Origin: Enchytraeus crypticus
Taxonomy: Eukaryota; Annelida; Clitellata; Enchytraeida; Enchytraeidae
Reading direction: 5' to 3'
Assembly: GCA_905160935.1 (NCBI GenBank)
Contig: CAJHZI010000294.1
Span: forward strand, 248,001-312,000
DNA: 64,000 nucleotides
Program-made: the position numbers and the translations under genes
Shown: positions 8,630 to 59,600 of the stretch, piece by piece
Layout: the number at the start of each line of letters is the position of its first letter
How positions within the stretch are numbered: position 1 is the stretch's first letter
Notes under the pieces: model-generated
The model's database searches: none
Told to the model about the DNA's origin: nothing
What the model saw: the letters and a program-made list of their open reading frames with translations, nothing else

Positions 8630-10970
8630 ATGTGGGGCAAGATTGACCGTTGGGGCAAGAGTGACCATAGATAAAAGTGTATTGTATAATGAATGAATCT
8701 GAGTGTAAATCGCGTTTACTTTTACAGCTGAGAGTGTTGATCGAAGTTGTAAACAAATTGAGGTTTTATTTCATGTTATATTTGTTTGGCAGTTAAAGAT
8801 CAATACTTGTCTGTAGATATTTATAGAAATTTATTCATTTGTTAACGATTACATATTCAATTTTTAACAATTAAATGCACTTGTCAAGTTGCTTTCCATA
8901 AAGAAGTAAATAAATTTAGTGGCCATTTATTATTGGTTGCTTATATTGGGACAAGAGTGACATTTTGCCTATGACAAGAGTGATATTTTGCCACAACATA
9001 ACGAAATTATGTTACGACGTTGCGTATTTTAATTTTTCTTCCTTAAATTAGTATTCAGCATAACAAACTCATTATCGTTTAAGCTTTAGTCTGCTATAAC
9101 CACAACCAATCTAATAAATCAAAATGTAGCCTAAGCAAGAATATGTATCAATGTCTGCTATACGTTTATTTTAGATGGTTCATTCTTGTAAGAGAAAGAC
9201 ACAGAGATCGTCTTATACCGAGGAATCTCTACAAAAAGCTTTATCTCTTGTTTCTAAAGGAGAAATTAATAAACGTGAAGCTAGTATGCGATATAAGATA
9301 CCAAGAAGTACAATTATAAAGAGGCTTAAAAATAAAGACTATATTCTGCCCAGCTTAGGCAGGTATAGGCCAGTCTTTGATGAACAATTTGAAGTACAGT
9401 TAGTAGAGTATTCCTGCGAGATGCAAAAGAGGTGCTATGGCATTACAATGGTGGATTTGCGTAGACTGGCCTGTGATCTTGCTGAGAGAAATCGGCTTCA
9501 GAACCTATTTTCTGTCAGTAAGAAAATGGCAGGTCGTGACTGGGTTTCACATTTCATGTCTCGCCATCCTCTATTATCATTTCGTACCCATGAGTCAACA
9601 AGCTTTCTCGCATAACTGGATTTAACAGAGTTCAAGTTGGCAAGTTCTTTCACCTGCTACAAGAAGTTATGTAGACAAACCAATATGAATCCAGACAGAG
9701 GGCACCAAACAAGTCGGAAAAGTAGTAAGTGCAGAAAAGGGTACAACAACAACCGTAGTTTGTGGTATGATTGCTAGCGGTACCTTTACACCGCTAATGA
9801 TGATCTTCATGCGAAAGAGAATGAACGATGTTCTACTGAGAGATGCTCCTCCTGGAACCATTGGAAGTTGCTCTGATAATGGTTGGATTGATGGAGACAT
9901 TTTTTTAGATTACTTGCAGCACTTCACGAAGCATGCTAAGCCAGGTCCAGAGAATAAAGTTCTCTTGATTTGCGATGGTCACCAGAGCCACAAGACTTTG
10001 CAGACCATAGATTTTGCAAAAGCTAATCACATCACTTTGCTCACACTACCACCGTCATATCGTCTTCAGCCCCTAGACATAAGTTTCTTCTGGTCCTTTT
10101 AAAGCATACTACGGAAGAGCGTTGGATAACTGGATGGTACAGAATCCTGGTAAGAGAGTCACACCGTTTGATATCGCAGGTCTGTTTCTTACTGCCTTCC
10201 TACGTGCAGCATCAGCAGAAAATGTGATTAAAGGATTCTTGGCATCCATTCTTTTAATCATCCTGATATATTTACTGAGGCTGATTTTGCTTCCAGTACT
10301 GTCACTGATAATACTGTTGATCCATCACACCAGTCTGCTGTTCCTTCAACATCACTATCTGATAAGCAGCCTACTCACGTTCCATCCATAGAAGCATCCA
10401 TTGTGATTCCAGTAACTTCATCATCGCAATCTACTGAAATCCAAGGATCATCCACCGTGACGTGACACCAGATACACCAATCACCATTGAAGCATCCACC
10501 ATGGACCCTGGTGTTTCATTTTCACAAAATACTTATACCCAAGGATTATCCACGTTGACACCTGGATCGGCAATCATTGAAGTATTCATCATAACCCATG
10601 ATGCTGCAACAGCTGAGGTGACCGATATTTTATAGGGGATATGATAGTATCGGTATTGTCAATCAGTCCTTAACCTCAAGCCTCGCGAGATAATGCTCAG
10701 TCGAGGAAAATAAAAGTCGAGACATCTTGCATTCTAACCAGTACACCTAATAGAAGTAAGACTGCTAATAGCAAGCATGCTAAATGTATTACACAATGTC
10801 GTGATAAACTTAAAGCTGTGAAGAAACTGAATGTAGGTAGGCCAGCTGTTAATGAGAAGAATGCAGAATGCAGAAGGTAATTGTTGAGTACTTTTTTATC
10901 TACTGTAAGGAGAAATGAGACTGTGGAAGTTGTGGGCTCATGAAAGCTGCGCACCTATTGAGAGAGGAAG
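8630..10970 (+). mobile_element. Decayed pogo/Tigger-type DNA transposon
   Basis: Contains the transposase remnant at 9175-10440 and degraded coding-like sequence to about 10960. Upstream, GGGGCAAGA(G/T)TGACC occurs twice near 8635-8670 and in weaker form near 8945-8985. Such repeats are often found at pogo-like termini. I found no matching inverted copy downstream, so the 3' end is undefined and both boundaries are approximate. Confidence 0.6.
9175..10440 (+). pseudogene. pogo/Tigger-like transposase pseudogene (psq HTH + CENP-B-like + DDE_1)
   Basis: The 146-codon frame at 9175-9615 starts with a pipsqueak-type helix-turn-helix (ALSLVSKGEINKREASMRY...IPRSTIIKRL, residues ~20-52), followed by a CENP-B-like second HTH ending in FMSRHPLLSFR. 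About 100 bp later, and in another frame, comes the DDE_1 core at 9767-10102: TTTVVCGMIASGTFTPLM, SDNGWIDGDIFLDYL, LLICDGHQSHKTLQTIDFAK and LPPSYRLQPLDISFF. Another frame change at about 10100 continues into AYYGRALDNWMVQNPGKRV and AFLRAASAENVIKGF. At least two frameshifts and an in-frame stop make it non-functional. In an intact enzyme this fold cuts and rejoins DNA at TA targets. The family call is confident; the exact ends are not. Confidence 0.85.
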
Positions 10971-17035: not shown

Positions 17036-20000
17036 TCACTCCACTTTCTTAATATCCTGACTTTTACCATTGCTGTAGATCAAATTTTTGTTCATCCAAT
17101 CACGGGTCTTCCCACTGTCCCCAGAGGCTGGGCTTACATCAGAGGTGGAGTCAGAGATGTTGCCATGACGACGTATACGGGCATAGGGTCCAATGCTCGG
17201 ATCAAAGATGAAGTCCCAGATAACCTTGACCCATGAAGAGTGACAAGGCAAGTTTTCATAGAATTCTGGCGCTATCTTACGAACCTGGATAATATATGTT
17301 AACGATAATTATCTAGAAAGTTATAATAATCATCTATAACAAGGAAAAGATATCTCTTTTTCATTTTTCAATATTAAATTTTAGGTATGCATAAATGTTT
17401 ATTATTATAGTATTATTAATAACTATTTTTATTATTAATAACTATTATTATATTTAATATTAACCCATGTTGAGTCTGGGTTGCTTAAGAATAGATCAAC
17501 TGTGGACTGCATGAGCCGTAAAAGGCAACAAAGCACTAAGACCTAAACCAACATCAGAAAGGCATTCGGTTGGTGAGCGACTAGACTCCAGAAATTAATA
17601 TAAAATTTTCTACAAAGAATGAAAAAGCTTTAGGTCTATTCGTATCCCAACCGTAGTTCAACTGAGACTCAAGGGTTGATGATGATGACGTATTATATAT
17701 TAATTTAACTGGTCCAAACCTGTAGCTCAAACAATACTTTTAAACTGAACACAATGAACTAAACATTACTATGCTAAAATAAATAAATAAAATATTTTAG
17801 CATTAAAAGAAAATAAGTATTAATACCAAATGTTAACATTCCAACAATAGTTGTTCTCGGGGAATAAAATAAATGCATCTAAAAACTAAACGTCATCATA
17901 TCATACTGTAAATAATACAGTATACATATACATGTTAACCATATCAAGATAAGAACAAAATCTTGTAATTATGTCCGAATGCTGCGCTTACAAGGCTGAT
18001 TGGCATATAAAAGATATAGTCAATACAAGCTCCAGTCAAGTAGAAAGGCAAGTTAGGTTTTTAAACAATAACATTACATACAAGCAGTGAATTGCTAATG
18101 AAATCATACATACAGTAGCACTCTCGATTGAACCACGTAAAACATCTGCATACGATTTTCATGAATACCAAAGTAAATTTCTCCTGATTAACTCTGCAAC
18201 TTGAAGACGCTAACAGTTTGTATATGTCTATCAGCTATTAAAGCCATACAGTAATAACTTCCTCAACAAAATAATCTATAAAATACATATGCACGCAGAA
18301 CAAGTTTCAATTATAGAGACTATACATAAATTAAGTATCATCACATCACAAACTATAGGTTAACCAATGATAGACGACTATAGAACATACACAGATACGT
18401 ATCATCTATAGACGGTGGTGAGCGCCTAGGCTCCAGAAATTGCTATAAAAATTTAAAAGAATAGCTCAGTCTCAAATAGGGTAATAGGGGACTGACTGAT
18501 AGATGACATGATGTAGGACATAGAGGATTTGAGACAGTCTATTCGTATCCCGACCCTAGTTAAACTGGGATTTAAGGGATGATGATTATGATGATATAGA
18601 CTATACATATATGAAGTATCATAAAATCGTAAAGTTTTCTAACCAGAGGCAGACGACTGCCGGGAATGTTGGGAAAGTCGTGATGTTCATTGTGGTAGCC
18701 CACATTGAACGTGATCCAGTTGAGAGGACCGTAGTACGAGTAGGTCTCGTAGCCGACTCTGAACATGTAGTGCTCCGAGATGAAGTGACCGGCTGTAGGG
18801 TGCAGACCCATAGCTAGCAGAGTTCCTGTCGCCAGGTAGATCAGAGATCTACACGGACACACACACACACACATACAGAAACACAAAGACATTAAGTTAA
18901 GTGGATGGTCCAAGGTACTCACGTAGATCAGAGATCTACACATACACACACACAGATACACAAAGACATTAAGCTAAACGGCTGGTCCAAGGAACATATT
19001 CCTACTCACATTACGCTTTCATGCTGCATAAAGAAATGGCTTCTGACTTTGCCTTTCTCAGCTCTTGCCCAGCAGCCCTATACGACACATCCAGTCTATC
19101 ATTGGTTTATTCTTCAATTATTGCGTACTCGAGACAGATGATCAAGAAACTCATTACCTGATGCTCACAGAAGTAGCACTAGTCGGGCTTATGATAAAAA
19201 TCAATTTAGCGAAAGGGATTAAGCATGACTTGTTGAGGAATAATTCACTGCTACTCAAATCAGGCAAAAACTGGTTTCTACATTAATCAAATAGGAAATT
19301 GTTACCTCCAGTCATAGATTTAGACAGACAGTGACAACTCCAGCATCTCTGAACCTAATACTGCACTAAATTATTATCTTAGGCTTCATTTGAGACACAT
19401 TACTATAAACATGTACAGATGTAGACCATTGACAATGACAACTATGTATTTAATATCATTACTACTGTAAGATTCTTACCCAAGGCTAGAGAGATCATGA
19501 TGACTCGTATATCTTCAGATATCATCATTATTTCAGTATGCTTACCTCCAGCCGATGGCTAGGTAGATCAAAATAACTATAATATCTTCAGATATCATCA
19601 TCAATGCTTACCTTCAGCCCAAGGTTAGGTAGATGATGATAACTATTACATCTTAGATATCATCACCAATGCTTACCTTCAGCCCATGGTTAGATAGACG
19701 ACGGTAACTATTACATCTTAGATATCATCACCAATGCTTACCTCCAGCCCATGGTTAGGTAGATGATGACATCAAAGCAGAGTTGAGCAGAGAAGTTGAT
19801 GAGCTCCAGAGATGTGAGAGGTTTAGGGTTTAGCATGATGGGTCTCAGTGTGTAGAACAATGGCTGAAGTATCACCCACAACAACTTAGTGAATGTTCTC
19901 TGAAACAAGCGAGCCTCCAGACAAGATGGTATGTCCATGTCTAACTTTACGTCTCCCTACAAACAGCACCAAATCTAAATACAAAGTGGTGTAAATCACG

Positions 20001-22038
20001 TCTTCTACAGTATTGTTCACTCAATTTTTTAAAATCTATTTTCTCAGAGACTGTATTGAGCTGATATATTAAAATACAGGCCTCTAAATCATCGTTCACA
20101 AGCTGAACCAGTAGCACAATCGGTTTAGTGTCTGGCTGCAGATCAGGAGGTACATTTTTACATACAGTATTCACCCAATCACTGATTCACTTAAGAGACA
20201 TGAAATAGTCGTTAAACTAAACTTTAAGTCTTTAATTTTCCATGGATGAATTATCATATTTCTTGATGAGTTCCAACCAGACGTTATATAGTGATTGAAA
20301 AGCATCAGCTTCCTACTTCTCCCTTTTCCTGCATAGCAAATAACAGCTCCGTGGCATACAGCTATTTCACCATTCTTGAGCTTCTGTAGGCCTACCTCAT
20401 TTAAGAGCTGTCAATATCTCACCTAACATTTTTAATGTACCATCAGATAAGCAGAAAACTAGAATGCTTAAAATTTAAACTTGGACACAAGTTGACTAGA
20501 TTTCAACTGAATTATTTAAAACGATTTTGTATAGATTTCTAAAATTTGGTTTTCTAGAGATCAAGATTTTCTTTTTAAGCTGCAATATGCTGCAATAATC
20601 ATTAATACAGTTGTTTAAATGAGTAGCTAATTACAAATTATAGAGCATGATATAGATTATGAATTATAGAACACAGCTTGTGATATCGATGGATACAATG
20701 TAAACTGACGATATTATGCCACTGTTAATAGGATGACCACATTACCTTTGCATAGTCAGTAAGTTACTACTACTAGAGTAACTACAGACTATAACATGTT
20801 CATTGTGTCAATTTTAATAGGTTGCATCACTATTAATATGACAGTCATGTTTCAGTGATTACCTGGTATCTATGATGCTCGAGATGATACTTCTTGAACA
20901 CGACAGCATACGGAATGGCTAGGATGAGATTACCAAATATCGCCAGCGTTCTATTGGCTACCGGTCGCGCATGGCCGAACGCTAAATTGTGCGATATCTC
21001 ATGTATAGCGAGAGTCATGCTGTGGTTTATAACTCCACCCCAGCAATATCCGACCAATAGGATCGTGTACCAGGCAGCATCTCTCATCAGGAAGGCAGTG
21101 ATTATTTGAATTACGACCAACAGAGTCACGGCATATTTAAGATTTTCATCGTGGCCCATTAATTCCTTGATCTCCGGATGCTTTTCTAATATAAACACAC
21201 ATGAGCAACATGTTAATCGTTTCTATATATAACATCCATAGAGAATTAGATATAAGATTTCTTAAATATCATTAGCGATGTAGAACTAAACGTAAATCTT
21301 TATCAAGTTTGTTACAGCCAAAGCTAAAGCTAGCTTTGCCATCAGTTTGACAGAAAATAAGTGACGAGGAGTGCACTGGATTTCTATCCTGCACCTAAGG
21401 ATCTGCTGTCGAACAACTTTAAGAAACCTCCTTCTCAGTCAATTATTATTATTACACAATAACCAAAAAATAGGTAGAAATATTGAAGTTAGCTATATTA
21501 AACCTCTCATATTCTGCCAAGTGGCAGGTCCACAGTACTACTCACAATCTGCCTTCATGCTCATTATGAGCATGATAAGGTGCATCAGATAGGCTTTACT
21601 ATATACCTTAATGAAATCCTGGCCTTGGAAAGACAAGTTTCTGAAGTGGTTTCCTATAGCCTTCATTTGTTTCTTAAGTAAGGCTATATAGGGCAAAGCA
21701 AAACAACGGTAGTTAAATCAGATCCATACCATAGTAGCTCAGCGTGAAACATGGGAAACTAATAGAATATAAAGATATTTCTAAGTAAATAAAAATTTAG
21801 TTAAAAATTTAATTAAAGCAATTTCATCCAAAGTAGATTAAAAACTACACTATCCAGAAAATATCATATGTATTAACTGGACTTAACAATGTCAGTTAAC
21901 TTTAAATATCGTAACTAATAATAATCACAAATTTATACTCAACGTAATATAATTACCTAGAATAAGTTTGCGTCTAGTTTTGTGGGGCTCCTCCGTATAG
22001 ACCCACTCAAAGTCTGATCTTGATACTTTCTGTCCCAT
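17036..22038 (-). CDS. DEGS1: Sphingolipid delta(4)-desaturase / dihydroceramide desaturase (DEGS1 type)
   Basis: Five exons on the minus strand: 22038-21957, 21185-20863, 19956-19742, 18848-18644 and 17284-17036. All junctions are GT-AG and all phases close, giving 357 residues (human DEGS1 has 323). The protein starts [20 protein letters not shown], which matches DEGS1, and Gly2 fits the known N-myristoylation. The three di-iron histidine boxes are intact: HEISH (89-93), HLEHH (128-132) and HNEHH (259-263), at human-like positions. Hydrophobic spans around residues 45-80 and 105-125 and further ones in exons 3-4 fit a multi-pass ER membrane enzyme. It introduces the 4,5-trans double bond into dihydroceramide to make ceramide. 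The C terminus after [10 protein letters not shown] runs about 30 residues longer than in human and is Ser/Asp/Lys rich. Intron 3 carries tandem copies of the flanking splice sites. Confidence 0.95.
17460..17700 (+). repeat. Interspersed repeat family D, in the last desaturase intron
   Basis: Contains AAGGCATTCGGTTGGTGAGC, TCTATTCGTATCCCAACC and CTCAAGGGTTGATGATGATG, the same order as at 18411-18597. Confidence 0.6.
18411..18597 (+). repeat. Interspersed repeat family D, in the last desaturase intron
   Basis: GGTGGTGAGCGCCTAGGCTC ... CTATTCGTATCCCGACCC ... AACTGGGATTTAAGGGATGA, ending in (ATG/ATT)n. It lies about 50 bp downstream, in gene orientation, of the exon 4 donor. Confidence 0.65.
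18830..18980 (-). repeat. ~83-bp tandem duplication of the desaturase exon 4 acceptor region
   Basis: GTAGATCAGAGATCTACAC occurs at the true acceptor of exon 4 (18848) and again at about 18921-18939. Both are followed by a CA-rich tract, ACACAAAGACATTAAG and TGGTCCAAGG. In the gene's orientation the intronic copy keeps the TGTAG acceptor and gains a GTGAGT donor only 13 nt later. Confidence 0.85.
19470..19762 (-). repeat. 65-66-bp tandem array built from the desaturase exon 3 / intron 3 donor
   Basis: CTTACC (the reverse complement of the GGTAAG donor) recurs at 19475, 19541, 19607, 19672 and 19737. The last is the true exon 3 donor. Each unit carries the last ~15-25 nt of exon 3 (on the plus strand CCAGCCCATGGTTAGGTAG and variants) plus the first ~40 nt of the intron. 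Confidence 0.92.
21321..21428 (-). repeat. Degraded SINE family A in desaturase intron 1
   Basis: Order of AGCTTTGCCATCAGTTTGA, AAGTGACGAGGAGTG, TGGATTTCTATCCTGCACCT and GGATCTGCTGTCGAACAAC follows the minus-strand family A consensus with many changes. Confidence 0.5.
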
Positions 22039-32325: not shown

Positions 32326-34671
32326 CATATATAAACACTACTTGACCACATCAGCATTAGAGATCTTAAGAACTTTAGGTCAAAATGTTTCTTGATGAAG
32401 AATGGACCCACTGACGACAAAAAGTTTGCTGCTGCAAGTAAGGGACGTGAACCATGTCTTCACAGTGATTTGAAATACATTGCTATTATTAATGAGAGAA
32501 TTAGACAGATATAACAAACTAAAAAACTTTAAAATAAAAGATAAACTAAACGAAACTATAATGATATCTTTATTTGCTGATGCCCGCATCAACATCAGAT
32601 GGGCCGTGGATTCATATCAAAGGCTCACGGAACCTACCTCCAAATCCAAATCAAAGAGAAAGGTGACTCATGTACCATGCTGTAAGTGACTCGTTGAAAA
32701 TAGAGCTAATGACTCACTGATCATAGAGCCAATGACTCATTGATCATGAAGTCAATGACTCACTGATCATAAGCCAATGACTCACTGATCATATAGCCAA
32801 TGATTCATTGATCATAAAGCCAATGACCCATTGATCATAAAGCAACGACTCACTGATCATAGAGCCAATGACTCGATGTTCATCGAGATAATGACTCATA
32901 GATCATAGAGCCAATGACTCATCGCTCATATAGCCAATGACTTACACGGTAGAATTAAATAACTACCTTTCTATTACATAGATGAATACAAACCGTGACA
33001 GTATGAGTAAAAGGCAGCCCTAGACCATCGTGTAGCAGAGAACAGATGTAGCAGAGATCCATGCAGGAGAACTCTTTCTCTGAGGTGCTCAACCTCTCGC
33101 AGACTTGCTTGCCGGCAGTACAGAACTGCTGAACCTTCACCGGACCACCTTGTTCTTTGTCCACCAGTCCAGCTAAGGCAGCCTTGTCGAAGTAGTAGGA
33201 GATAGCATAGAGGGCGGAGCCAAGGTTGGTTAGCTTGTCCATGCTGTAGCTTAGAATGACCTGACGAGCAGCAGCATAGCAGGCCTCGTGCCGACTCTTG
33301 CCTGCTGACGCTTGGTAGCTGTCAAATATCGGCATAATACAGTTTACTACAGCTGAGTCATAGCTGTCACACATCGGCATATTACAGTTTACTGGAGCCA
33401 GTGGCGAAGTCGGTAGGACACTCGACCGCGGATCAGTATGTGCAAAGTTCAAATCCTGGGCTCGCCCGTCACTGACCTTGCTTTCGAATGAGAAAACTGA
33501 CGTTAATCTTAGCTTTACCAGACTTTTTAGCTTTTTACTACAGCTAAGTCCTAGCTGTCAAACATTGGCATATTATAGTTTACTACAGCTAAGTCATAGC
33601 TGTCAAACATCCGCACATTACAGCTCACTACTGCTAAGTCATAGCTGTCAAACATCGGCATAATATAGTTTACTTGAGCCAGCGGCGAAGTCGGTACGAT
33701 ATTCGACCGCGGATCAGTATGTGCAGAGTTCAAATCCTGGGCTCGACCGTCACTGGCCTCGCTTTCGAGTGAGGAAACTGACGTTAACCTTAGCTTTTTT
33801 TACCAGCTTTTTAGCTTTTTACTACAGCTAGTCCTAGCTGTCAAATATCGGTATATTATAGTTTACTATGCAAAGTCATAGCGCTGTCAAACATAGGCAT
33901 ACTATAGTTTACTACTGCTAAGTCATAGCTGTTACACATCCGCATATTACAGTTTACTATGAAAATCATAGCTGTCAAAGATAGGCATATTATAGTATAC
34001 TACTGCTAAGTCATAGCTGTCACACATCCGCATATTACAGTTTACTACAGCTAGGTCATAGCTGTCACACATCCGCATATTACAGTTTACTACAGCTAGG
34101 TCATAGCTGTCAAACATCGGCATATTACAGTTTACTACTGCTAAGTCGTAGCTGTCAAACAAGGCATATTACAATTTACTACTGCTAGGTCATAGCTGTC
34201 AAACATCGGCATATTATACTTTACTACTGCTATGTCATCCCATATGTGGCATAGATACAGAGGTGACGTCGTCAGCTTGACGGAGCACATTTTCACCTCT
34301 ATACTGAACGACTTCCCCGTGTTGAGCCCGGTTGTGGTTGGTATCACTGCAGAATAGGGCAAACGCAACAAGTTGCCGCGTGTACGTAAGAGGCGACTAA
34401 GGCAGGAGCTGAGGAAGGCAGAGGGGACCCACCTCACCATAAAAAAAATTCCAGGATTAATGGCAGTAAATTCAATATTGAACTGAGGAAAGCAATGGGA
34501 AACCATCTCAGAAGCCATATTATTTTCAAGCTATACGCTACATTAAGGTGTGGATCAAGCATAGCAATCTGTGAAGGGATTAACTCGTTAATCGATGTAT
34601 GCTCTATAAGGAGCATGAAAGCAGCACGGGAGTAGGAATATGCACCTTGGACCTGCCGCTTGGCAAAATAC

Positions 34672-34707
<36 letters not shown>

Positions 34708-37700
34708 CTGAAACACTAGGTCTCCAAGTACTGGGCTATTATCGAATAAATTAACAGAGCTCTTCATGTATATGCATTGTGTAGTTTAAGACATTGTGAA
34801 ATCATCTGAGATGCCATAACAATTTCAAGCTAAAATTCCTTTAATGCTTAATTAAGGAAGAACCTTTGTGATGGGATCATCTAATTGATCAATGGAATCC
34901 TCTCTATACGGTGTGAAAGCAAACATTTCACACTAATATGAGCATCTAGGGACAAATTTCAAGGTTTGAAAGTTAGCAAGAAATGGCATGATTGAGATCG
35001 AAGCTATTAGTTAATTTTAACACTAAAGCGTGATAATGTTCACTTCTCAATATACTATCAAAATTACATAAAATCGAAGCTAGTAATCATAAGGGTGTTT
35101 CATTTGATTTACCTAATAGAGTGTTCAGCTCCAGCGTGCTTCCACTTGCCAGAAAAGCCTTCAGCAAAGCATGGACTGCTAAATACACCAGCTGGAGTAT
35201 CTTTAAAATAAGAAATATAATTATCAAAATATTAGAGAACAATAGCAAAGACAAAAAATCAATATAAAAATTAGTTCTCCATAAATAGACGTCTAAAAAA
35301 GTGTAAATCTATTTAAAATCGGAATATAACTTTACCTAATAAATAATAATTTATGATAAAAATATTTTACTTAAAATCACAGCTTTCAATTCTTTTAACG
35401 CAGGAAAATAAATTTACTTCCTATAATTTTTATGCAAAACAATTAGCAGGTGAGACCATAAAGTAATTCAACTTTCTCCAGCTAATAGACTAATGATTGA
35501 TTAGTCATTAATGACTTTTAATGTTATATTTTGTTAACTATTAATCCGAAAAATGACTTTTACGGGGGACTTACTATTTTCTGCTACACTTCTCGAAAAC
35601 AAGAGATTGAAATTGTTTCGGAAGCGAAATGAATGCAGAAGAAGGGTAAGAATCAGAAAATATAATAATTGCTCCAGCAGGTGCAACATTTAGCACGTTA
35701 CAGAAAAGCACGAGAGGGCATGATGTAAAACTTGAGATTAAACTATGAATTCTTAACTCCTGTAAAGTATGTAAAGATGGGAATCACAGGAATTAATAAA
35801 GACAACTGAAAAAGAATTGAGAGTCACCAAAAACAAATGGTTAAAGATATTACAGTTACAACGAGCATGTAGCAAATGATGCAGTAAGGACAAAACAACA
35901 AATGGTCAGTAAAATCATTATGAAAAGAAGAATGAAATGTGTAGGACATGTGCTGCACTTGGACAAAAACAGAAACCCCGGAAAGATATTTAGCCACAAA
36001 GCATATGGCAAAAAACAGTGGTAAGTCCTAAAAGAAGAAGGAAAGATTTCCTCGAAGATGGCCTGACGGCTGCTGGAATTAATATTTATGGGAGAACAGA
36101 AGATAAACAATTACAATGGAGGAAACGGCGAAGAAGATAAACTTGTGGAGGAATATTCTAGAGAAATTTTTGGATGGCATGACTTTCTAATTTCTTTCAA
36201 ATTATCTGCATCAGTGAGTTCCTATGCAGTCTCAGCTTAATTAACAATGCAAATCTTTCAAGCTAAGGCACCAATCAAATGATATCCTTTAATCTAAACT
36301 ATACTACAATTGTTAACTCGCCACACAAAATACTAATAGATAGTTTCAGAATATTAGTTATTAGAAGAAAGGATGGAAACTCACTTTCCTTTGCTTCTTT
36401 TCCGCCTAGAATCTGAAAGCGACCTGAATTCAAACCCAAGCCTAGGTAACTGCACATCAATAATACCAGAAAATTAGATATACGATCATTGAACAATTTT
36501 ATGCATTAAAGAACATATTTAGCCAAATCTTGTGAAAGCAGACTTTGGATATGAATATGTACCTTGGATCTGCCACTTGAACGAACACTACAGAGAGAGA
36601 GATTTAGCTTAGTACTTAAAACTAAATAATTTCTATATGTTATGTAATGCCTTCAAACGTCTACCACCGACAACTTAAACATAAATATACAACTTGATCT
36701 TTTTAACTTAGACTTTAAACCTTAAATGTGAACCTAATTTTTTTGCAATGACCATTTTACACTAGGAATAGAGTAATCTACACTCATCACAAAGAGGCTT
36801 GCAAAGAAAATATCTGAATAAGTAAAATATCTGCAAGTAGCTATTGTATACATGAAAAACCCAAAAAAAATACATTACAAAACTCAAATACACTTTCGTT
36901 AAGCCAAAGATTGAAGGCAGCAGTATTTAACCACATACCTTCTAGTGTAAAGTTTAACATTTTGTTTGAGTAAACTAACACTCAAAGCATGTGAGTTGAC
37001 AGCTGCATCACTCGTCTCCTAAAACAGAAAACAAAATGACGGAAATTTAAAAGTGGAATTTATATATTCTGTAATTCTTAGGTCCATGTTAAATATATTC
37101 TACTATCAAACCATTTCGTCGGATTATATCGTTCAATGAATATCTTTAAATTTAATTAATACAAGAAAAATATCTATAATTGCTTATATATTTCAATAAA
37201 TAATAGCAGAACATTCTCAGACTTTGAAACGGATGTTAGATCTTTGTTATTTTTACTAACATTATTGAACGCAAAAATTGCACCTCATATAGTACCAGTA
37301 GTCAAGCCATGACACTCCCAAAGACTACTAGTAATTTTAACTTACAAATTTTAGGGAAAACACAGCATGCGATTAGCTCTCATATGAGACTTACAGAAGG
37401 TTTAATGGCGTAAGTGACTTGTGTTGAACCGCCTCCGAGATCCATTACACCCACCATACGTTCTGCACTACTCAGAGCACCTGGGTTAACAGCAACATCA
37501 GCAGTTAAATAACATAGCTTCTATCTTAACAACAACATCAGCAATTAAATAACACAGCTCCTAGGTTAACAGCAACAACATCAGCAGTTAAATAACATAG
37601 CTTCTATCTTAACAACGACATCAGCAATTAAATAACACAGCTATTGGGTTAACAGCTACAACATCAGCAATTAAATAACATAGCTCCTGGGTTAACAGTA

Positions 37701-38465
37701 ACATCATCAGCAATTAAATAACACAGCTCCTGGGTTAACAACAACATTAAACAGCTATATTGTACGTTGTACGTAAGTTTCTAAACCTCAAGGGATCAGT
37801 CAGGGATGGTCCAGTTGGGATTCGATTCAATGGCTTCCTGCATATCAGGCAAGTTTGATATTCATTCAGCCATACAACAGATTCATCAGCAATAAAACCA
37901 CGCAGCACATGGGCTAACAACAATATTAGTAATTAAAATACTGAGCATCAGGGTTAGCAGCAGAAACATCAGCAATAAAACAACAAAGCACCAGAGTAAG
38001 CTGCAGAAAATCACTAAGATAACAAATCAAAATAATAAATCAAAATATCAGCAAAATTTATGTTCCTGCTTAACAAAAACAACAATCTACATACAGATAA
38101 TACTAAAAATCTCTCTTACAATTACTTATAAGTTATCAGAATAACACAATAAAGGATGCTGAAAGATTGAGAGTACATATAAGTTTCTACCAATTAAGAG
38201 CAGTTTTAAAAGCTTGGTAATATGGCACAAAATATAATGTATATCTTAAGCCAGTTATTACATCAATCACAAGAACCTTAGACTCCAGTTACACTCGTCG
38301 GTAAATTAAGCAAAACGTCTCATAACACTGCTGCTCAAGTGTAATTAAGCAAACGTCTCATTACACTGCGGCTCAAGTGTAATTAAGGCATACATGCTTT
38401 GCGAAAAATTCAACTGGAATTGCCTCCGTGACAAGACATTAGAGTTAAAATTTACCGGGTTTCAT

Positions 38466-38500
<35 letters not shown>

Positions 38501-41500
38501 GGTTTAACGTCCGTTTCCTCATACAAGGATGACGTCAGGGACGGTAATATAGCAACCGCTTCAATAGATGTTATTACAGCATGGTAACCTTCAATAAGTA
38601 GATTGACTGTGAACCAGCTGTATAGACCTTCATCCTCTCCCTCTAATATGGACACTGCATTGTTATCCACATGGAATGGATAAGTTTTGAACAGTTTCAG
38701 CACCTACATGTGGCACAACAAAACAATACAAATAATATATTAACGTCAGTGTCTCCACTTGATTGCCTTAAACCATAAAATGTGCTAATAGAGTAATTAA
38801 TACAACACTGCTATACTTAAATATGCCATCATGTTCACAGTATTCACTGATTTTCTACAAAGTCAACAGTTATAGAGTTCTAACAAAGTCAACTGACAAG
38901 TTGCAATGAGACTGTAACAGCGAAAAATTATTCTAGGTGGAATCAGTTTATGAAGAGGTGGGCCCCTATGCCTTCCTCAGCTTCGACGAACATTTACTGG
39001 GCAGGGGCGTCACTCCCTGAGAAAACAATCCTGTTTACCCAAATACATAATTAATATAATCATTAGAATTGTTCGTTGTTCAAAGAAATTGAATTGAATT
39101 GAAATTGAATAAGCCGAGTAGTTGCTCCAATATAGCTCAATAAGCATGAACAAAAGTTACAGAAGCATCACAAAACTTTTAATGTGAGAAGATACTATGA
39201 GCCTATGACTCTGTCCTTCTGAATAAAAAGTCAGCTTTCCTCAGAGCATTTTTAATTGCAGATTAACAAACTGACAGTTTTACAGTATTGCATAATCCTG
39301 AAAAAAGTATTGCAGTTCAAAAGAATCAGCAATATGTTTGATTTTAAATAGGTCGTGCTTCCTCAATGATTGATTTTTTTACCAAAGGTGAAAATTAATT
39401 ACACTATAAGTTAAAAATGGAATAAAATTACTCTTTTACACATTGTAATGGTTAAGCATCTTAAAGCATAGAAGCAGCAATGATTCTATTATGAAATGTT
39501 TGAAAAAAGGCATTAAAAATTGTCAGAAAATTTATATTTAAATGCCTAGTTGAATAATTCTATATCTTTCCACAAATCAAATGCTTCAAATAGATAGCAT
39601 TAAAACAAGTTCTATCATTTATTAGTTCTCTAATGGATATGTATTAATCACATTTTATTTACGCAAATTTGTAAGTTATGGCGGCAAAATAGAAGTTTAA
39701 AGATGTGGTACAACAAACTTTACATGACATACAAACTAGAGAACCGTAATATTATAATATAACACAACTAAAACATAAATTTATAGAAAAACATATTTAC
39801 ACATATTAACAAGCTGAGTAAAATTTCGTAAACCTAAAAATACCTGCAAAAGTATAATTATACGAACAGCAAAGTTATAAATTAATTATAATTTAAGTAT
39901 AATTTAAAGTTAATTTATAATTTAAATTAATTATTATTTATAATTAATTTATTAATATAGGTTATAATTATTTATAATGTATAAAGTTATACAAAAAAAG
40001 TAAACACACATTATTGTGAAATGATCAACTAAGTTGATATCTATCACTTTTTAATACCACATGTTTAAACCGTTAAGCAATTTAGACCATTTTCCGTTTA
40101 ACCTGTCCAGTGAATGTCCGAGATTTTACTCTCAGATCAGCACGGCTGGGATTAGAACCCATGAGGGTTCAATTCACCCCAGGATCTGTCATCTAAAAGT
40201 TCATGACGTTACCCCTAAGCCATTAAGGCATTCTATATTATATAGTTAGTTTCCTTTACTTCATCCACTCTAGATGCAAGGAAATAGTGGACCACATACG
40301 AACCTCGTCCAGTATTGCCGCAGCAGACTGATTGGAAATGAGTCTAAGCCCAGCCGTTGCCTTGAGAGCCAAGCTCGTCTCAGCCCACAGCGGCTCAGGC
40401 ACGTAGCCCTTAGCCTTCTCCAGCATAGGTCTCAGGCTCTCAGCAGCCTAAACACGCAGTAACCATCAGACACCAGTTACTTATGCACTGCTACTGGTAC
40501 ACTTAAAAATTCTAAGTTTTATATATCATTAGGATTATTTAATATGGTCATTTTTGTATTAGTAGTTTTTTTTTAAATTTAATTTTTAATGTAATTATAT
40601 TATACCGGTTGAGGAGGTCGCCAAGACCTGTATCACCAGTTTAGTTATTAGTTAATCATCTCAGTAATTCAAGTAATGAAGAATTAACATCAGGGGTTAA
40701 AGTATGAATTAAAAGCTGGAGGAACGGTCACATTTTTTGGCCCTCATCCTTTTACAGGGTCCCTAGTATCTAATTTTAGTCCTTTAGCAGGGAAATTAAC
40801 TTCCGAAAAAATGAGAAATTAACTTTAGAAAAAATTAGAGCTACTGAAACTGAGTTCCCTAGCATTCTCCCTATATTAACCACAGCTTAACTTCTAAATC
40901 CTCACAGAAAAGTTATGACGTCTAGCAGAGATTAAGCAACTACAGATGTCATCTCGTCTAAGAACTTCTGCTTTTGCAAAATAAAACCAATGAGCTAACG
41001 TCATCGTCAAGTCTATCTCAGACATATCTATAACTGGAAGAGACGACAAATAAATAATATTACATTTAAAAAGTAAATTTATCATAATCGGCATATAAAA
41101 GATAATTTACGGTACATATAATCTGAATATATGATTCAGAATATACTAAAACTATTGTATATACATGTACATTTCATTAATCATGTACTCATTTACCTGT
41201 AATAATATAATTTTAGGATATTTGATAAAGTTGAAATGATCTGAATGACCAATCGTTGTAATCACTATGGTACAGTATACTTTGTATTATTTTATTTCAA
41301 TAGTATGCTATTTATTTATTTTTAAAATTAACAACAAAGCTGTCACGCATATGCATATAAATTACATTACATGTCCACAGTTAAAATCACTTTACATATT
41401 TTTCTAGAAATATCGATGGTAGTAAAGCCTAACTTTGGCAGGTTGACCAGCATATGCAGAAAGACCAGGTTTGGTGTGATCAAACAGCTCATCTAGAAGT

Positions 41501-43677
41501 TTGAACGAGCCATCTGGTGTCTTCTTAAACTTGAACACGTGTATTCTGCTACCTGTGCTGCCCGCATCGAACATTATGCCATAGAGAAGGTTCAACTGAG
41601 AGTCTTCTTCTGCACGAAACACAGACAGCGAATAACAATCAACAGAAATCTCTTTAGAAACAGAAATAGCAGAGATTGAATAGGAATATAAATCTTAAAC
41701 TTGCCATTAGGCAAAACAGAGAGAACAAGCAATACAAATTAAATATATGTAACAGTATATTATAAACTAACAAAAACATTGTTAATCTACCCCGCAGTGC
41801 AAGTAAGACGTAACCTCTACCTCTGCAGTATAAATGGGATGCAGAACCTACCCATGCAAATACAAATAGGATGTAAAATCTACCTCTGCAGTACAATTTG
41901 AAAGTTAAATGCTAAAAATGTCAACTATACACTGATCAGATGGCAGTCAAACTAGATATAATAAATAAAAGCAAATAAATTAAAAGTAATTAAAAAATAA
42001 ATCAGAATGCAGCCTAAAAAGTAGGAGGCAGAATAAATCTACCTAGCTGATCCAACATATTTCATATATAAGGTAAAAACTGCTTTAATAATTCAAAAAT
42101 AATCTACATAACTTATTAATATATATTACTATTAAGGTTTGAGCAAAATATTTCTATCAATACCTAGGGGATATAGATCATTAATTTGCAAATGATGTAA
42201 ATTTACCAGTACAAAAAGACACCCATATATCCTGTTTATAATTACAAGTAGATATATAGTATATACATGCACACCTTCCTTCAAAAAGGCTACGCCTTAT
42301 CCTTACCTTATAATGTAAACTATACATAGCCCAGGAAAATACCTTTCTGTGGCGGTTTCCTGTTAACATCCTCAGTTCTTGCTTAGTCACCTCTTACGAT
42401 ACGTGCAGTTAATGGTTGGACTGTTCTACTGTGTTTCGGACACAACATGGGAAGACATATTGTTTCCAAGCTATAGGCTACATAAGGTGTAGATAAAGCA
42501 GAGCCTTTCGTGTAGGAATTAACTTGTCGATCTATGGAGTGCTCTTTATGAAATGTAAAAGCAGCCTCTGATTATGAATATGTACCTTAGACCTGTCAAT
42601 TAGCAGAGCACAAGAGAACGAGATAGATATTCCTAATACTATCATAATTATGCAAAAACTCTTGCTGAATCTTTACAACACTTGATCTTTTGATTCAGTT
42701 ATAGATTGTATATAATCGTCCTAATAATCTCTCTCTCCAGTCTAATCCTATTCTCTCAAAGTTCTAATACTCTCACTTAATCCATCTTCTCTAAAGCCTA
42801 CTCAAAATCTCTCTCTTAGTGCACTGCCTACTGGCAGGTCCATGGTATATAACGCCTATACTCTTCTCTGCCTTCTGCTTTCCTCTACATGTCCACATAT
42901 GAGTGGATCTTTGAATCATCCAACATTCCTAATGTTGGCCTGCCTCTATTTCTTTCCAATCTGCCTTTCATGATCTCTTTAAGTAGACTCTAAATCTACA
43001 ACACATCAAAACCAGTTCCCCTGTCCCACTTATGGCTTGCATTGCCCTTATTTCTTCTCTTGTGTCACATTCTTTCATAAAATAAAATAGCGGTTTACTT
43101 ATCAGCAACTCTGCCTTTGATTGAACGTGTTCATTTCTTACTTTAATAAGATTTTGGACGCATAGAATTATAGAATATTAACTTATCGCTATGTGATCCT
43201 AATTTTTTACTGCGCTTCTTTTCTTATGAAATGAAATGAAATTATTGATTTGGTAAATAATATCTAGTTACATACTGGTTCTAAACACTTCATTGCACAA
43301 TTCCACTGGAATTTCTCTGGATCAATGACATTCCTCTGGAAAGTCATCAATATCTCTGCAACTTTTCATTTCTCAATTCTTCAATCGCTTAATACATTTT
43401 CGCATATATAATATCAGGTCCTTTTTGATCACCAAATATCACCTCTTCAAATTAAAAGCCATCTTCCATTGGAAATGCAATGACAACAAATATTTTCAAG
43501 TGAGAGAAATATAAAATAATCAAACTATAAATCCACTTTATGTTTACCTGCTGTAGTACTGGAAGTTAAGCCAGACTTCCTGCTGTAGAGAAGAAGTAGA
43601 ATAAGAACAACTCCAATGAATAAGAATGCATAGAAAATTTTACGTCTCTGACTACGCATGGCTTGTTCGCGATGCAT
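31663..43677 (-). CDS. ENTPD5/6: Ectonucleoside triphosphate diphosphohydrolase 5/6-like (GDA1/CD39 family)
   Basis: Eleven minus-strand exons: 43677-43548, 41609-41434, 40447-40304, 38703-38589, 37480-37395, 37018-36939, 36449-36385, 35200-35113, 34346-34297, 33310-32994 and 31752-31663. All sites are GT-AG and phases close to 446 residues, between human ENTPD5 (428) and ENTPD6 (484). Residues 14-31 form one hydrophobic signal-anchor ([18 protein letters not shown]) after a basic start, as in ENTPD6. Apyrase regions are present: DAGSTGS (58-64), KATAGLR (131-137), [10 protein letters not shown] (171-180), MDLGGGSTQ (201-209) and YAISYYFD (346-353). The terminal [10 protein letters not shown] block is also present. 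Family members hydrolyse UDP/GDP in the ER-Golgi lumen or after secretion, supporting glycoprotein folding and glycosylation. Introns hold SINEs, LINE debris and two acceptor-derived minisatellites. ENTPD5 and ENTPD6 are not separable by eye. Confidence 0.93.
32140..32330. repeat. (AT)n array with ATAATATATA interruptions
   Basis: A compound AT array in the last ENTPD intron, with many short self-complementary ATATAATATATAT segments followed by a pure (AT)n run. Confidence 0.95.
32690..32945. repeat. ~23-28-bp minisatellite (ACTCACTGATCATAGAGCCA)
   Basis: About ten imperfect copies of ATGACTCACTGATCATAGAGCCA. It begins some 50 bp downstream, in gene orientation, of the ENTPD exon 10 donor. 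Each unit contains the palindrome TGATCA. Confidence 0.85.
33392..33530 (+). repeat. tRNA-derived SINE, family A, inside the 45-bp array
   Basis: Box A TGGCGAAGTCGG is exact and box B is AGTTCAAATCC (first G lost). The body is CGAATGAGAAAACTGACGTT. It is preceded by CAGTTTA of the array unit and followed by TACTACAGCTAAGTC of the next. Confidence 0.88.
33673..33815 (+). repeat. tRNA-derived SINE, family A, second copy inside the 45-bp array
   Basis: Box A CGGCGAAGTCGG, box B AGTTCAAATCC, body CGAGTGAGGAAACTGACGTT. Its flanks match those of the copy 281 bp upstream. Confidence 0.88.
34380..34705 (+). repeat. Family C repeat with (GA)n tail
   Basis: GGCGACTAAGGCAGGAGCTG ... GAAACCATCTCAGAAGCC ... 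TTAACTCGTTAATCGATG ... ACCTTGGACCTGCCGCTTGG, ending in GAGAGA at 34673-34704. This is one of the most complete copies; a related degraded copy follows at about 34790-34960. Confidence 0.7.
35620..36150 (+). mobile_element. LINE 3' end in an ENTPD intron
   Basis: Broken frames give [19 protein letters not shown] and a downstream DGLTAAGIN...[15 protein letters not shown] block. This matches the C terminus of many LINE ORF2 proteins (GHVLRM...R..GK...GRP...W...DR..WR). Stops interrupt it. Confidence 0.7.
37470..38000 (-). repeat. ~40-46-bp tandem array built from the ENTPD exon 5 acceptor
   Basis: The true acceptor reads TGTTAACCCAG|GTGCTC at 37481. On the plus strand the motif CTCCTGGGTTAACAGCAACA with ATCAGCAATTAAATAACA recurs at about 37521, 37561, 37604, 37645, 37687 and 37731. 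Degenerate copies run on to about 38000. Most copies keep an AG at the boundary. Confidence 0.88.
38465..38555 (-). repeat. SINE 3' tail with (TAA)n, family G
   Basis: (AAT)n followed by AAGGTTTAACGTCCGTTTCC, TCATACAAGGATGACGTCAG and GGACGG. The reverse complement occurs at 58556-58625, ending in (TTA)n. A tail of the GACGTTAAACC type is common in invertebrate SINEs. Confidence 0.65.
40001..40236 (-). repeat. tRNA-derived SINE, family B, full copy
   Basis: Plus-strand block order: TAAACACACATTATTGTGAA, GTTGATATCTATCACTTTTT, TTTAGACCATTTTCCG, CCAGTGAATGTCCGAGATTT, GGCTGGGATTAGAACCC, ACCCCTAAGCCATTA. On the minus strand the last two read as box A (TGGCTTAGGGGT) and box B (GGGTTCTAATCCC). Confidence 0.8.
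40690..40880 (+). mobile_element. Fragment of hAT-like family N1
   Basis: AGGAACGGTCACATTTTTTG, then TTTACAGGGTCCCTAGTATC, then GAGCTACTGAAACTGAGTTC. Same order as 49570-49670, and lying in the intron between ENTPD exons 2 and 3. Confidence 0.6.
42430..42625 (+). repeat. Family C repeat in ENTPD intron 1
   Basis: TTGTTTCCAAGCTATAGGCT, GCAGAGCCTTTCGTGTAGG, CGATCTATGGAGTGCTC, ATATGTACCTTAGACCTG and a short GAGAACGAGATAG tail. A reverse-oriented related copy is at about 42790-42970. Confidence 0.65.
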
Positions 43678-50009: not shown

Positions 50010-50205
50010 AAGAAGTCCTATTTATTGGACTAAGGTTTCAAAGTTTTATTGTTTCGACATTTCATAGGGATTACATGGTTTTGAGGTTTTGTGATTTGTT
50101 GGACTTCTAATTCTTTTTCTAGATGGTAATTATTATCAGACTAAACAGTGGATCTTGTTTATTAAAATAAACAGAATTTTGTTAAATGCCTGTAGTGCTG
50201 CTAAG

Positions 50206-52098
50206 ATGACTGAGCTGATAATAGAACAACTTGAAGGTGGTCACACGGGGAGCGTTTTGTGTGTCATTGTTAACGACAAATCTTGCATTATCTCTGGCGG
50301 AGAGAACAGTGAAGTGGCTGTCTGGTCGTCGGATGGCACTCTCATAAAATCATGGAAGATATCATTGGAAGATTATGATGATGTGACTAGTATAGTGTGT
50401 TCAAAGCTACACCCAGGTCTCTGCTATGTTGCCTGTGGCAGTCATATATACACACTGAACATAGATCAGGTCGACCAGCAACCTGTGCGAGTATTTTCTC
50501 ACAGCAACGAGGCTGGCGATGATGAAATCAATCAAATTTCATTGGATTCGGATGAAACATATCTAGCTATTGCCGATGATTCGGGGAAAGTTAAAGTCAT
50601 CAACACGAATGATTTCAGTTTGTATCGAACCTTGCGAGCACACACGAACATCTGCTCAAGCGTTAGCTTTGCGCCGAACGGAGATCTCTACAGTGCTGCA
50701 TACGATTGCGATGTTAAGCGATGGAATGTAAGAAAGTCTCGCAGCTGTGCAACTGTGAACATGAAGAACATAAGTGATGATGACGCAGATGTTGAGAATG
50801 GGCGCTTCAGTGTCAGTCCTCCTTTCGTTCACTCACTGAAGGTCTCACCAGATGGGGCTCTGCTCGTCTGTGGCACTGAAAACTCTCTCGTTCATATCTT
50901 TGATCTGTCGAAGAACACGCTGCGCTATGGCACGACGCTACGTGGACACACACAGGGTGTCTCTCAGGTTAGTTTAGTTATTAATGTGTTTCATTATGAA
51001 GCTTTGCAATAACAAGTTTCTCCAATAGTAACATTTTTTATATACCCGTAACGATTTGTTTAAGAGATTCTACTTCTACAACACTATGGCTTCTATTTTA
51101 GAATATAACTTAGCAGCCTTTGACGCCTCTGATGTGTATATATGCAAGAGATATGAAAGATAGGATAGTGACTGATGCTACGGTATAGGAAAGAGAGGAG
51201 TGGAGAGAAGGTGTGTGCATATCCCGACCCTAGCTAAACTGGGATTCAAGGGAAGATATTGTTTATAAGGAAGTTGTAGCTTGTATATTGCTGATGTATG
51301 CTGATGATAACAAGGAAGTTATATATGCTTTAGATATCCAAAACTAATTAGATTCAGACTATGCCATATAGCAGCTCTCTATGTTAAGCAGAGATTTTGA
51401 AATGAAGGTTATATTTCAGCTAAGAGTTTTATTACTAATTTTAATTGCAAGTAATGTCAATTACAGCAATTAAAGAGGCATTATATTGAAATTATTATAC
51501 AGTACTAGAGTTGTATTTAACTTCTATGGCAATTAATAACTGAAACAATTCAAAAATGAAAATTGATGTGAAGCACTAATGTTTAGCCACATTTCTGCTA
51601 GTGTATTTTTTAAAAATGTATATTTGGCTCAGACCTCTACTTCAATGATATCTTTAAAATTTTGGATGTTATAAATTGTGCACGCAGAATTTGCAAATTC
51701 GATACCTAGTACAGTTTAGCAATATATCTATCATGTTGTAGGTGGCATTTCTTAATCACTTAAACAGCAATGGAAGCGGCAATGATGACTCACTGACTCA
51801 GTATCTGATAACAGCCGGTAACGACAACAAAATCTGCTTGTGGGACGTTCATGAAGTGATCCAGTCTAGTCGATTTACGTCTAATCAAGGTTCTTCTGAG
51901 AGAAGTGGTAAGAAGAAAAAGGGTGGTGTTAATAAAACGCCGGAGACCAGTGAACCGACCTCAGCAAATATTCAACCGAAACGTGTTGTGGAACACTCTG
52001 AAAAAATAAACTCAGTCGCAATAGGGAATCTTAAGGGAAAGTCATACGTCATAGTCGCTGACAACTCAAGCAGTTTAACGTGCCTTACTCTGGCGTAA
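50206..52098 (+). CDS. WDR53: WD repeat-containing protein 53
   Basis: Two exons, 50206-50967 and 51742-52098, joined by a phase-0 GT-AG intron, give 372 residues (human WDR53 has 358). Alignment from memory of the family is clear along the length: GGHTGSVLC, DDVTSI, a DDSGKVKVI blade, RAHTNICSSVSFAPNG, LRGHTQGVSQV and GNDNKICLWDV. The C-terminal part has the family's basic, low-complexity insertion (SERSGKKKKGG...) before EHSEKINSVAIG...VADNSSSLTCL. It should fold as a WD40 propeller acting as a protein-binding scaffold. Human WDR53 has been listed among DDB1-CUL4-associated WD40 proteins, so a ubiquitin-ligase receptor role is possible but not shown here. The frame is open 51 bp upstream to another ATG at 50155; I prefer 50206 because it matches the usual N terminus. 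Confidence 0.94.
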
Positions 52099-52904: not shown

Positions 52905-53172
52905 CGTGAATCATCAGTGATGATCATCATGGGTCATCAGTGATAATCACCATGGGTCATCAGTGACAATCATCATGGGTCATCACTGATGATTATCAAG
53001 GGTCATCAGTGATGATCATCATGGGTCATCAGTGACGATCATCATGGGTTATCAGTGATGATCATCCTAAGTCATCAGTGACGATCATCATGGGTTATCA
53101 GTGATGATCATCTTAAGTCATCAGTGACGATCATCCTGGGTCATCAGTGATGATCATAATAGGTCGTCAGTT
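52905..53172. repeat. ~23-bp minisatellite (ATCATCATGGGTCATCAGTGATG)
   Basis: About eleven copies of GATCATCATGGGTCATCAGTGA with GGTTATC and TAAGTC variants. Confidence 0.92.
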
Positions 53173-53395
53173 ACGATCAACTGAGAACTCTGTTAAGATC
53201 AATAGAGAACTCTATTAAGATCAATAGAGAACTCTATTAAGATCAATAGAGAACTCTATTAAGATCAATAGAGAACTGTATTAAGATCAATAGAGAACTC
53301 TATTAAGATCAACAGAAAACTCTATTAAGATCAATAGAGAACTGTATTAAGATCAACTGAGAACTCTATTAAGATCAACTGAGAACTCTATTAAA
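53173..53395. repeat. 22-bp minisatellite (AAGATCAATAGAGAACTCTATT)
   Basis: Ten copies directly abutting the preceding 23-bp array. Each unit contains the short palindrome AATAGAG...CTCTATT and can form a small stem. The unit is unrelated to its neighbour apart from GATCA. Confidence 0.92.
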
Positions 53396-56677: not shown

Positions 56678-59600
56678 TTACACTGGTGGCAGACATTTCT
56701 CAATGAATTTCTTTACATCTTCCAATTCCTATCACATCACACACACAAAAACAAGCAAGCATAAATTATCATGAAGAAAAATATTCGTCAAATTTAAGTT
56801 AGAATGAAAGAATGCTCTATGGTTAAAAATTTGTTTTATTAATGTAACCTGAACAAAGTTCGTAAACAAGACATAGATAAAAAAAATTTATTTTAACAGA
56901 AATACAAAAATATTACAAACACTGTTCAGATTCTTCTATTTCTGTCAGAAAACTAGTCTTAACTAGTAAACTACTTTTTCTAGCTAGAACCCAAGTAAAA
57001 CACTTAAGAGTTCCCTTATACGAATCATTAAATAACTTTCTTTAGTAACTAATCAGCTAAATTTTCATTTTACAGTTAAAAATGAAACAAAGCACAATTG
57101 AAAAATGTGCACATTTGCAACGGAATATTTTGCATAAAATGTAATTATAATATAATCAGAGCCTACGAGTTCATAAAACGTGACTGTGTAAGAGCTGTTG
57201 TACATCACTTCAACTTGCTAAAAACATTTTAAAATTGTTACTTCGAGGTTGACCAGCTAATGTCAAGCAATAGAATTTATGTAATTGAATTAAAACACTT
57301 GTAGAAATAAATAAATCACCGAGATTAGGGGCATTAGATGATTTAAAGATCCACTCATATGAGGACATGAAGAGGAAAATGGACGAGAGAGAAGAGTGGT
57401 GGCTTTATATACCATGGACCTGCCAGTAGGCAGTGCACTAAGAGAGAGAGAGAGAGAGTAGAAATAAATATAGCCATCCACATAAGAACTGCCACAGAAC
57501 AAGTGGAAAATTTCAACGAGTTATGAAGCTGATCGCAGCATCATCACCAGTAGCTATCAATAAAGTCAATATCGTCATCTTCCCTTGAATCCCAGTTTAG
57601 CTAGAATCGGGATACGAATAGATATATATAAATGCTTAGTTATCAATAAAGTCAAAGTGTTAAATCAGGTAAAGTAGTTAGACAGAGCATATAGTTTCTA
57701 CCTCCTCACACGATGAATGGGCCATTCCCTCGTAGCCCTTGAATGTTGCATTCTTATTGAACGACTGCAGCAACAGTGACGTCATGTGACCAAAAGAATA
57801 TCTAACAAGAGCGTCAGATTTGCCGTGACACTGCAGAACTGGAATCGACTCGTTACCCTTCAGCGCCTGTGCACAAACAACAAAATATTTTCCGTATAAC
57901 CAACCCTTTTCTGTATAGCCAGTCCAGTGAATGTCCGAGATTTTACTCTCAGATCAGCGCGGCTGGGATTAGCACTGAGCACTGAGTTACTAAGCACTGA
58001 GTTACTACATCATAGGTCTTTATTATGGTTATAAGCACAAAGAGAAAGCAAGAAGATGACAAGAGAGAGGCGTACCGCAGGGAATGATTTAGCAAGAGGC
58101 ATCCAGGAGCTGAGAGCTACAACACCTGCGACAGGCTCAGCGTGGGTGAACGTTGAGTGCAGAGCTACCGCTCCTCCTTGAGAAAAACCCCCCACAACGA
58201 TCCTGTTCCTCGGCACTCCCAGCTTTACCTCCTCTTCTATGAATGTCTGCACTGAAGAAAATTAGTAGAGTTCTAGGCAATACAGAGTACATCTTCTCAA
58301 TAATGCAACAGATTTCATTATTGCACAGAAACTGTTTAATTTCGAATATTAACCTAAGTTCTTAGCAATAGATTTGTAGATCTATTAAATAATGCAGCAT
58401 AGATATCGTTATATTGCACAGAAACTGTCTAAATAAAACAGCGCTCGATAATATATATTCATTTCGTTCCCCACAAGCACGAATATTAACCGAGTTCTTA
58501 GCAATACATTTGTAGAGCTATTAAATGATGCAGAGTAGATATCATTATATAGCGTAGTCCCTGACATCATCCCTGGATGAGGAAACGGACGTTAAACCTT
58601 TATTATTATTATTATTATTATTATAGAAACTGTTTAAATAAAACAGCGCTTGGCAACATCCTTTATACTACGTGACAGAATTTATTACAGTACAGGGAGA
58701 TCAACCTAAAGTTTTACAGGAGTTTAATAATTATACGAGTAACTAGATTAATCAAAATTATAATTATTTGTCTACTGACAATCTAGTCGATTCCACATTA
58801 CTCCATACAACCAGGGCCCAAGTGGGACATCTTGCACTACTGTTAACCTAGAGGCATTTAATTAGTGAATGCTGCAATCATGAAGGTTACAGGGCAAAAT
58901 GTCACAGCATTCAGACTGAGTCAGTATAACTTGAGAGAACTGCTAATAGAAGACTGCTCGTACTCGCTGAAGGGTCATACGAATACACTTAATAAAACTT
59001 ACGATCTAGGATCAAAGATTAGAAGTATACACCTTATAATTTCAAATCAGTCACTAGTTGGTCTATCATATCATTGACAAGTATACAAGGAGTGATTAAT
59101 GTCTAAACAATATTTATTCCCACAAAGTAAATATAAAAGCCAATATATTTTATAGGATGGAAAACTGAAAAAATAAAAAACTATTAAAAAACCATAAAAA
59201 ATGAAAAAATATTTAAAATTTTTCAAAACTCTCGGATTATCATTTTGAATTTCTACTGTACAATGTGTATTATTTAAATTTAAAAGCTGAAACAAGTTTA
59301 ACATCTGCTTCTGTGTTTCCTGGGATACTGCCACAAATGAGAATTTCTTTAAATTTGTCAATGAGCTGTAGATATAGGAAGGTATTATTACACTGTGCAG
59401 ATGCTGCCAGTATTCCAGCTTCATCCTCTGCACTGTCTGGTGCCAGACCAATAATGTCAAACCTAAAATTGTTCATAATATTTAGCCCCATCACACAACA
59501 GAAAACATGATACTTAACTAAGCGATCAAATCACAGAGCAATCAATCCAGAAGAATCATGTATCTGGCCATAGTGTTGCAAATACAAAACTGATGGTGTT

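Follow-up and report, generated by a model that had tools for sequence, protein, structure and literature searches.

The repeats in intron 7 of the human coagulation factor VII gene (F7), whose number varies between individuals, each carry a copy of a splice donor. According to the available text of a review, only the most upstream of these donors is normally used, and mutation of this first donor leads to exon skipping together with use of the downstream sites (PMC6627357). For potato RNA-dependent RNA polymerase (RdRp), the accessible part of one report describes an intron gained when a stretch spanning an intron-exon boundary was duplicated in tandem, the new intron being backed by RNA reads (PMC4974935), and earthworm metallothionein genes contain intronic minisatellites that are not stated, in the available text, to span a donor (PMC12783039). 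Besides F7, no donor-spanning array was evident in the open-access literature searched, by which we do not claim that none exists. Here we describe an array of this sort in the annelid Enchytraeus crypticus, in a stretch of 64,000 nucleotides (nt) (GenBank assembly GCA_905160935.1, contig CAJHZI010000294.1, positions 248,001 to 312,000 of the forward strand), referred to below as the window and numbered from its first letter, where five tandem units straddle the boundary between exon 3 and intron 3 of a DEGS1-type sphingolipid delta-4-desaturase gene. Most likely, this array is an intronic minisatellite spanning the donor, generated by repeated tandem duplication, of which the first donor is used and the copies, mostly passed over, are neutral leftovers.

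A five-unit array at the exon 3 donor of a desaturase gene

The desaturase gene was delineated by its open frame, Pfam and tblastn, and its coding part has the following layout:

17036..22038, minus strand: DEGS1-type sphingolipid delta-4-desaturase gene
22038-21957, minus strand: coding exon 1
21185-20863, minus strand: coding exon 2
19956-19742, minus strand: coding exon 3
18848-18644, minus strand: coding exon 4
17284-17036, minus strand: coding exon 5

Joining the five exons gives one open frame of 357 amino acids (aa), and all four introns have GT-AG borders. The product carries the motifs HEISH at 89, HLEHH at 128 and HNEHH at 259, which we take to be the histidine boxes of the desaturase family, and a partial model of it matched the Pfam families Lipid_DES (2e-21) and FA_desaturase (2.6e-14). 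When a partial query was used for a protein search, the best 120 of 7721 matches showed identities of up to 73%, and among these Capitella teleta stood at 67% and both Helobdella robusta and Lingula anatina at 66%. All five exons were located by tblastn with the proteins of four relatives, which placed exon 3 at 19956-19741, and by homology the junction of exon 3 with intron 3, an intron of 893 nt, is genuine. About 80 nt 5' of the start codon, at 22120 on the minus strand, there is also a strong donor-like site, CAG/GTAAGT (the slash marks the exon/intron boundary), possibly the end of a 5' untranslated exon.

Hand alignment, checked for contiguity, resolved the sequence around the exon 3 donor into five contiguous tandem units that together occupy 334 nt (19770-19437, minus strand):

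19706..19770, minus strand: unit 1, covering the exon 3 end (29 nt, 19770-19742) and the intron 3 start (36 nt); donor GGAG/GTAAGC after 19742, functional by homology
19641..19705, minus strand: unit 2, intronic copy; donor GAAG/GTAAGC after 19677
19575..19640, minus strand: unit 3, intronic copy; donor GAAG/GTAAGC after 19612
19502..19574, minus strand: unit 4, intronic copy; donor GGAG/GTAAGC after 19546
19437..19501, minus strand: unit 5, the most diverged, its exon-like part 7 nt shorter; donor TTGG/GTAAGA after 19480

The functional donor, as identified by homology, sits within the first unit of the array, and the later units have donor-like sites. G/GTAAG is present in all five units, and their GGTAAG hexamers, at 19742, 19677, 19612, 19546 and 19480, account for 5 of the 25 found in the window when both strands are counted. 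Compared with units 1-3, the intron-like part of units 4 and 5 has seven additional alignment columns, in which the bases are unlike between these two units.

That there are five units had been proposed by a first-pass annotation of the window made from the letters alone, and it is borne out by the hand alignment, by repeat finding in an ungapped register, which returned five copies at spacings of 73, 66, 65 and 65, and by Tandem Repeats Finder (TRF), which gave a pair of overlapping period-65 rows, one at 19479-19764 (score 259) and the other at 19538-19769 (score 350). The CTTACC positions listed there as donors match the five GGTAAG sites, and unit 1, with its 29 exonic and 36 intronic nt, supports the view that the true donor was duplicated together with flanks on both of its sides. 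Some details needed correction: the boundary GGAG/GTAAGC holds for units 1 and 4 and not for units 2, 3 and 5; the range 19470..19762 gives the right place for an array that extends 8 nt more exonward and 33 nt more intronward; and of the exon extensions calculated for the extra donors, 65, 130 and 262 nt are right and 195 nt should read 196 nt.

Predicted use of the copied splice sites

The predicted energies of pairing with the 5' end of U1 are, in unit order, -9.6, -9.5, -9.5, -9.6 and -9.2 kcal/mol, which places the five array donors ahead of every other GT among the 87 scored between 19955 and 18861, and the three other coding donors of the desaturase gene are all weaker (-6.5, -8.1 and -4.1 kcal/mol). 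Counted as Watson-Crick pairs with U1, units 1-4 and the exon 1 donor reach nine each, and unit 5 reaches eight. Since the predicted strengths are nearly equal, the sequence of the sites cannot account for use of the first donor. Neither, in our models, does folding decide which donor is used. When the 611 nt of 19960-19350 were folded, the real donor was the most unpaired one (0.46 versus 0.20 to 0.41 for the other four). Folding of the whole array gave a z of -5.86, with none of 100 shuffles equally good, and units 1 to 5 folded singly gave z values of -0.96, -0.28, -2.73, 0.09 and 0.52. A hairpin that would select the first donor was considered and dropped, because single units mostly fold poorly and the accessibility of the donors is mixed.

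Use of any of the four extra donors is predicted to bring in the same in-frame TAA directly after exon 3, yielding a product of 207 of the 357 aa from which HNEHH is missing; none of the extended forms is thus expected to preserve the whole enzyme. Nonsense-mediated decay usually acts on messages whose stop lies more than about 50 nt upstream of a junction. The distance from the stop to the exon 3-4 junction is 61, 126, 192 and 258 nt in the four extended forms, all of which, judged by their sequence, fit this rule. Separately, we considered single units as small alternative exons, which appear unlikely, given stops in the exon 3 frame and no pyrimidine-rich acceptor by eye (acceptors were not scored). 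Regarding the proposals of the first-pass annotation on function, near-equal strength of the donor copies is supported by the U1 energies, and a splicing role for the extra donors is not, as all four extended forms end at one TAA and conservation is not detectably higher at the donors than around them.

The acceptor of intron 3 is duplicated too, a feature that the first-pass annotation had missed. Two units of 87 nt are present, each with 74 nt from the end of the intron followed by 13 nt from the beginning of exon 4:

18923..19009, minus strand: upstream acceptor copy, with AG at 18937-18936 and a donor-like GTGAGT from 18922, after the 13-nt exon fragment
18836..18922, minus strand: functional acceptor unit, the last 74 nt of intron 3 and the first 13 nt of exon 4

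These units are identical at 70 of 77 aligned bases, and 11 of the 20 bases counted upstream of either acceptor are pyrimidines. Use of the upstream acceptor is predicted to add 87 nt in frame and without a stop, that is, 29 residues after residue 207 and a protein of 386 aa; the 13-nt fragment, if spliced as a small exon, is predicted to shift the frame and give 264 aa. At the gene's six remaining coding splice junctions, direct repeats of at least 16 nt formed no family in any of the six surrounding regions of 241-321 bases. In a large human reporter study, as far as its available text goes, the first of several tandem donors of equal strength was predominantly used, and equal acceptors showed no order of preference (PMC6783452). 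Because donors in these reporters are first come, first served and acceptors are unordered, we infer that the acceptor pair is a likelier source of real alternative splicing than the donor copies.

Origin of the array and competing explanations

Across the five units, 33 of 58 ungapped columns are invariant, among them all five GTAAG columns. Under random placement, the five GTAAG columns would all be invariant with P = 0.052, an invariant run of at least five columns arose in 85.7% of 20000 column shuffles, and the longest such run spans seven columns of the intron-like part, away from the donor. Within the low power of a test on a hand alignment of five units from one small array, conservation of the donors does not detectably exceed that of the remaining unit, which gives no clear support for selection, and shared recent ancestry is enough to account for GGTAAG in every unit. 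Identity to unit 1 in the intron-like part falls from unit 2 to unit 5 (36/36, 33/36, 30/36 and 25/36); in the exon-like part it is 23/29, 26/29, 23/29 and 16/22. The simplest history would be that repeated tandem duplication across the exon 3/intron 3 boundary produced an intronic minisatellite, in which the exon end was copied at least twice and older copies were displaced into the intron, and a later evening-out of near copies would leave a similar pattern. Since no donor but the first is productive, the exon-side copy would have to remain in use, and the first donor is also, most likely, where splicing occurs. The four downstream copies, near-equal and yet mostly passed over, would lose because the first donor on a transcript tends to win at equal strength, and their occasional use would give a stop-containing mRNA that is probably destroyed by nonsense-mediated decay.

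The position of the array on a splice junction is unremarkable and requires no special cause, since 7.7% of the window lies in TRF arrays (6.5% for periods of at least 10 and 3.4% for periods of at least 30) and, by simple arithmetic, one or more of eight coding junctions would fall within an array with a chance of about 0.24 to 0.42, a rough estimate in which the coverage includes the donor array itself and one period was chosen per merged TRF row.

Several observations weigh against a neutral minisatellite read from its first donor. Exon-like identities to unit 1 fall unevenly with distance, and unit 2 (exon-like part 19677-19705, minus strand) has 6 mismatches to unit 1 among 29 exon-like positions beside an identical intron-like part, a pattern that simple whole-unit duplication does not explain. 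Duplication of the other end of intron 3 is likewise left unexplained. With folding windows of 150 nt, an unpaired value of 0.34 puts the real donor second to that of unit 4 at 0.41 (range 0.28 to 0.41). The reporter contexts, in the text available, were human, with donors 2-77 nt apart (PMC6783452), and older work cited in the accessible part of another article observed a preference for the downstream donor where U1 occupies both and more than 40 nt separate them (PMC5933811); neighbouring donors in the array are 65-66 nt apart and hence beyond that distance.

Among the rival explanations, the extra donors may bind U1 without being spliced and in this way strengthen the definition of exon 3. 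All five sites have predicted U1 energies between -9.2 and -9.6 kcal/mol, and inclusion of an exon is reported to be enhanced by U1 binding downstream of the natural donor in PAH intron 11, where, however, the variants described in the available text lie at +17 and +20 (PMC5933811), as against 65 nt to the next site here. Moreover, no site has a better predicted U1 energy than the real donor, which ties with unit 4, so that help is hardly needed, and the donors do not stand out in conservation from the rest of their units; we regard this explanation as unlikely. Alternatively, the array could be a regulated switch of unproductive splicing, in which competition between donors leads to stop-containing forms and tunes the desaturase level, with copy number as the dose. 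The stop lies far enough 5' of the junction for the decay rule in all four extended forms, the donors are nearly equal in strength, and the downstream preference under double U1 occupancy cited in the available text of PMC5933811 would favour it; no excess conservation of the donors was detected, though at low power, and such a switch seems to us about equally unlikely. Extended to both ends of the intron, five donors and two acceptors, each set alike in predicted strength, might form a length-variable switch, the donor copies leading to decay and the second acceptor to a desaturase longer by 29 residues, with copy number setting enzyme output or form in natural populations, a scheme that we rate as very improbable.

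An artefact of assembly or base calling, meaning another true copy number or no array at all, could be suspected from the several private changes in the exon-like part of unit 2; the units, however, differ pairwise at 6 to 21 aligned positions and are not stacked identical copies, and an array of 334 nt fits in one long read, which makes an artefact the least probable explanation of all. A minisatellite that grew across the exon 3 donor and left copies mostly passed over is therefore the reading we keep. Should the extra sites prove to be used, the array would be relevant to the function of the gene; otherwise its relevance is small.

Surroundings of the gene and relation to described systems

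Elsewhere in the window, other segments were scanned with Pfam and matches were obtained in five of eight, including pieces of further genes:

50095-51009, plus strand: WD40 repeats
57681-57953 and 58013-58261, minus strand: Abhydrolase_2
41407-41694, minus strand: GDA1/CD39

The reading frame 9175-9612 on the plus strand contains Tc5-type transposase DNA-binding and Psq domains by Pfam, and the open frames that follow it up to 10388 look transposase-like by eye only. Other minisatellites are found at 32687-32942, 33534-33674, 33818-34238, 37476-37746 and 52911-53394, with units of 22 to 91 base pairs (bp) and longer ones in some rows. No RNA families or tRNAs scored above thresholds within the window.

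With several near-equal donors and two similar acceptors in one intron of 893 nt, the locus is a natural counterpart of the reporter experiment, and the share of junctions at each of its sites could reveal whether, in a non-human setting as well, the first donor prevails and acceptors are used in no set order. Rival donors at one exon end are also known as short-range tandem donors, which extend the exon by three to six nucleotides and for which duplication of a minisatellite is not mentioned in the available text (PMC2423196). The acceptor pair at 19009-18836 recalls the potato RdRp case, as far as the accessible text of that report describes it (PMC4974935), since there, too, the duplicated stretch joins the end of an intron to the beginning of the following exon, and a donor-like site lies close to where the copies meet; the potato intron, however, is supported by RNA, whereas the 13-nt fragment here would shift the frame (264 aa). 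The closest resemblance on paper is to F7 intron 7. Both have an array with donor-like sites in the later units and the first donor inside unit 1, and by this analogy the desaturase array would be of the same kind. The units differ in length, 37 bp in F7 and about 65 bp here, as do the gene and the animal, and sole use of the first donor, which is reported for F7, would here be the expectation.
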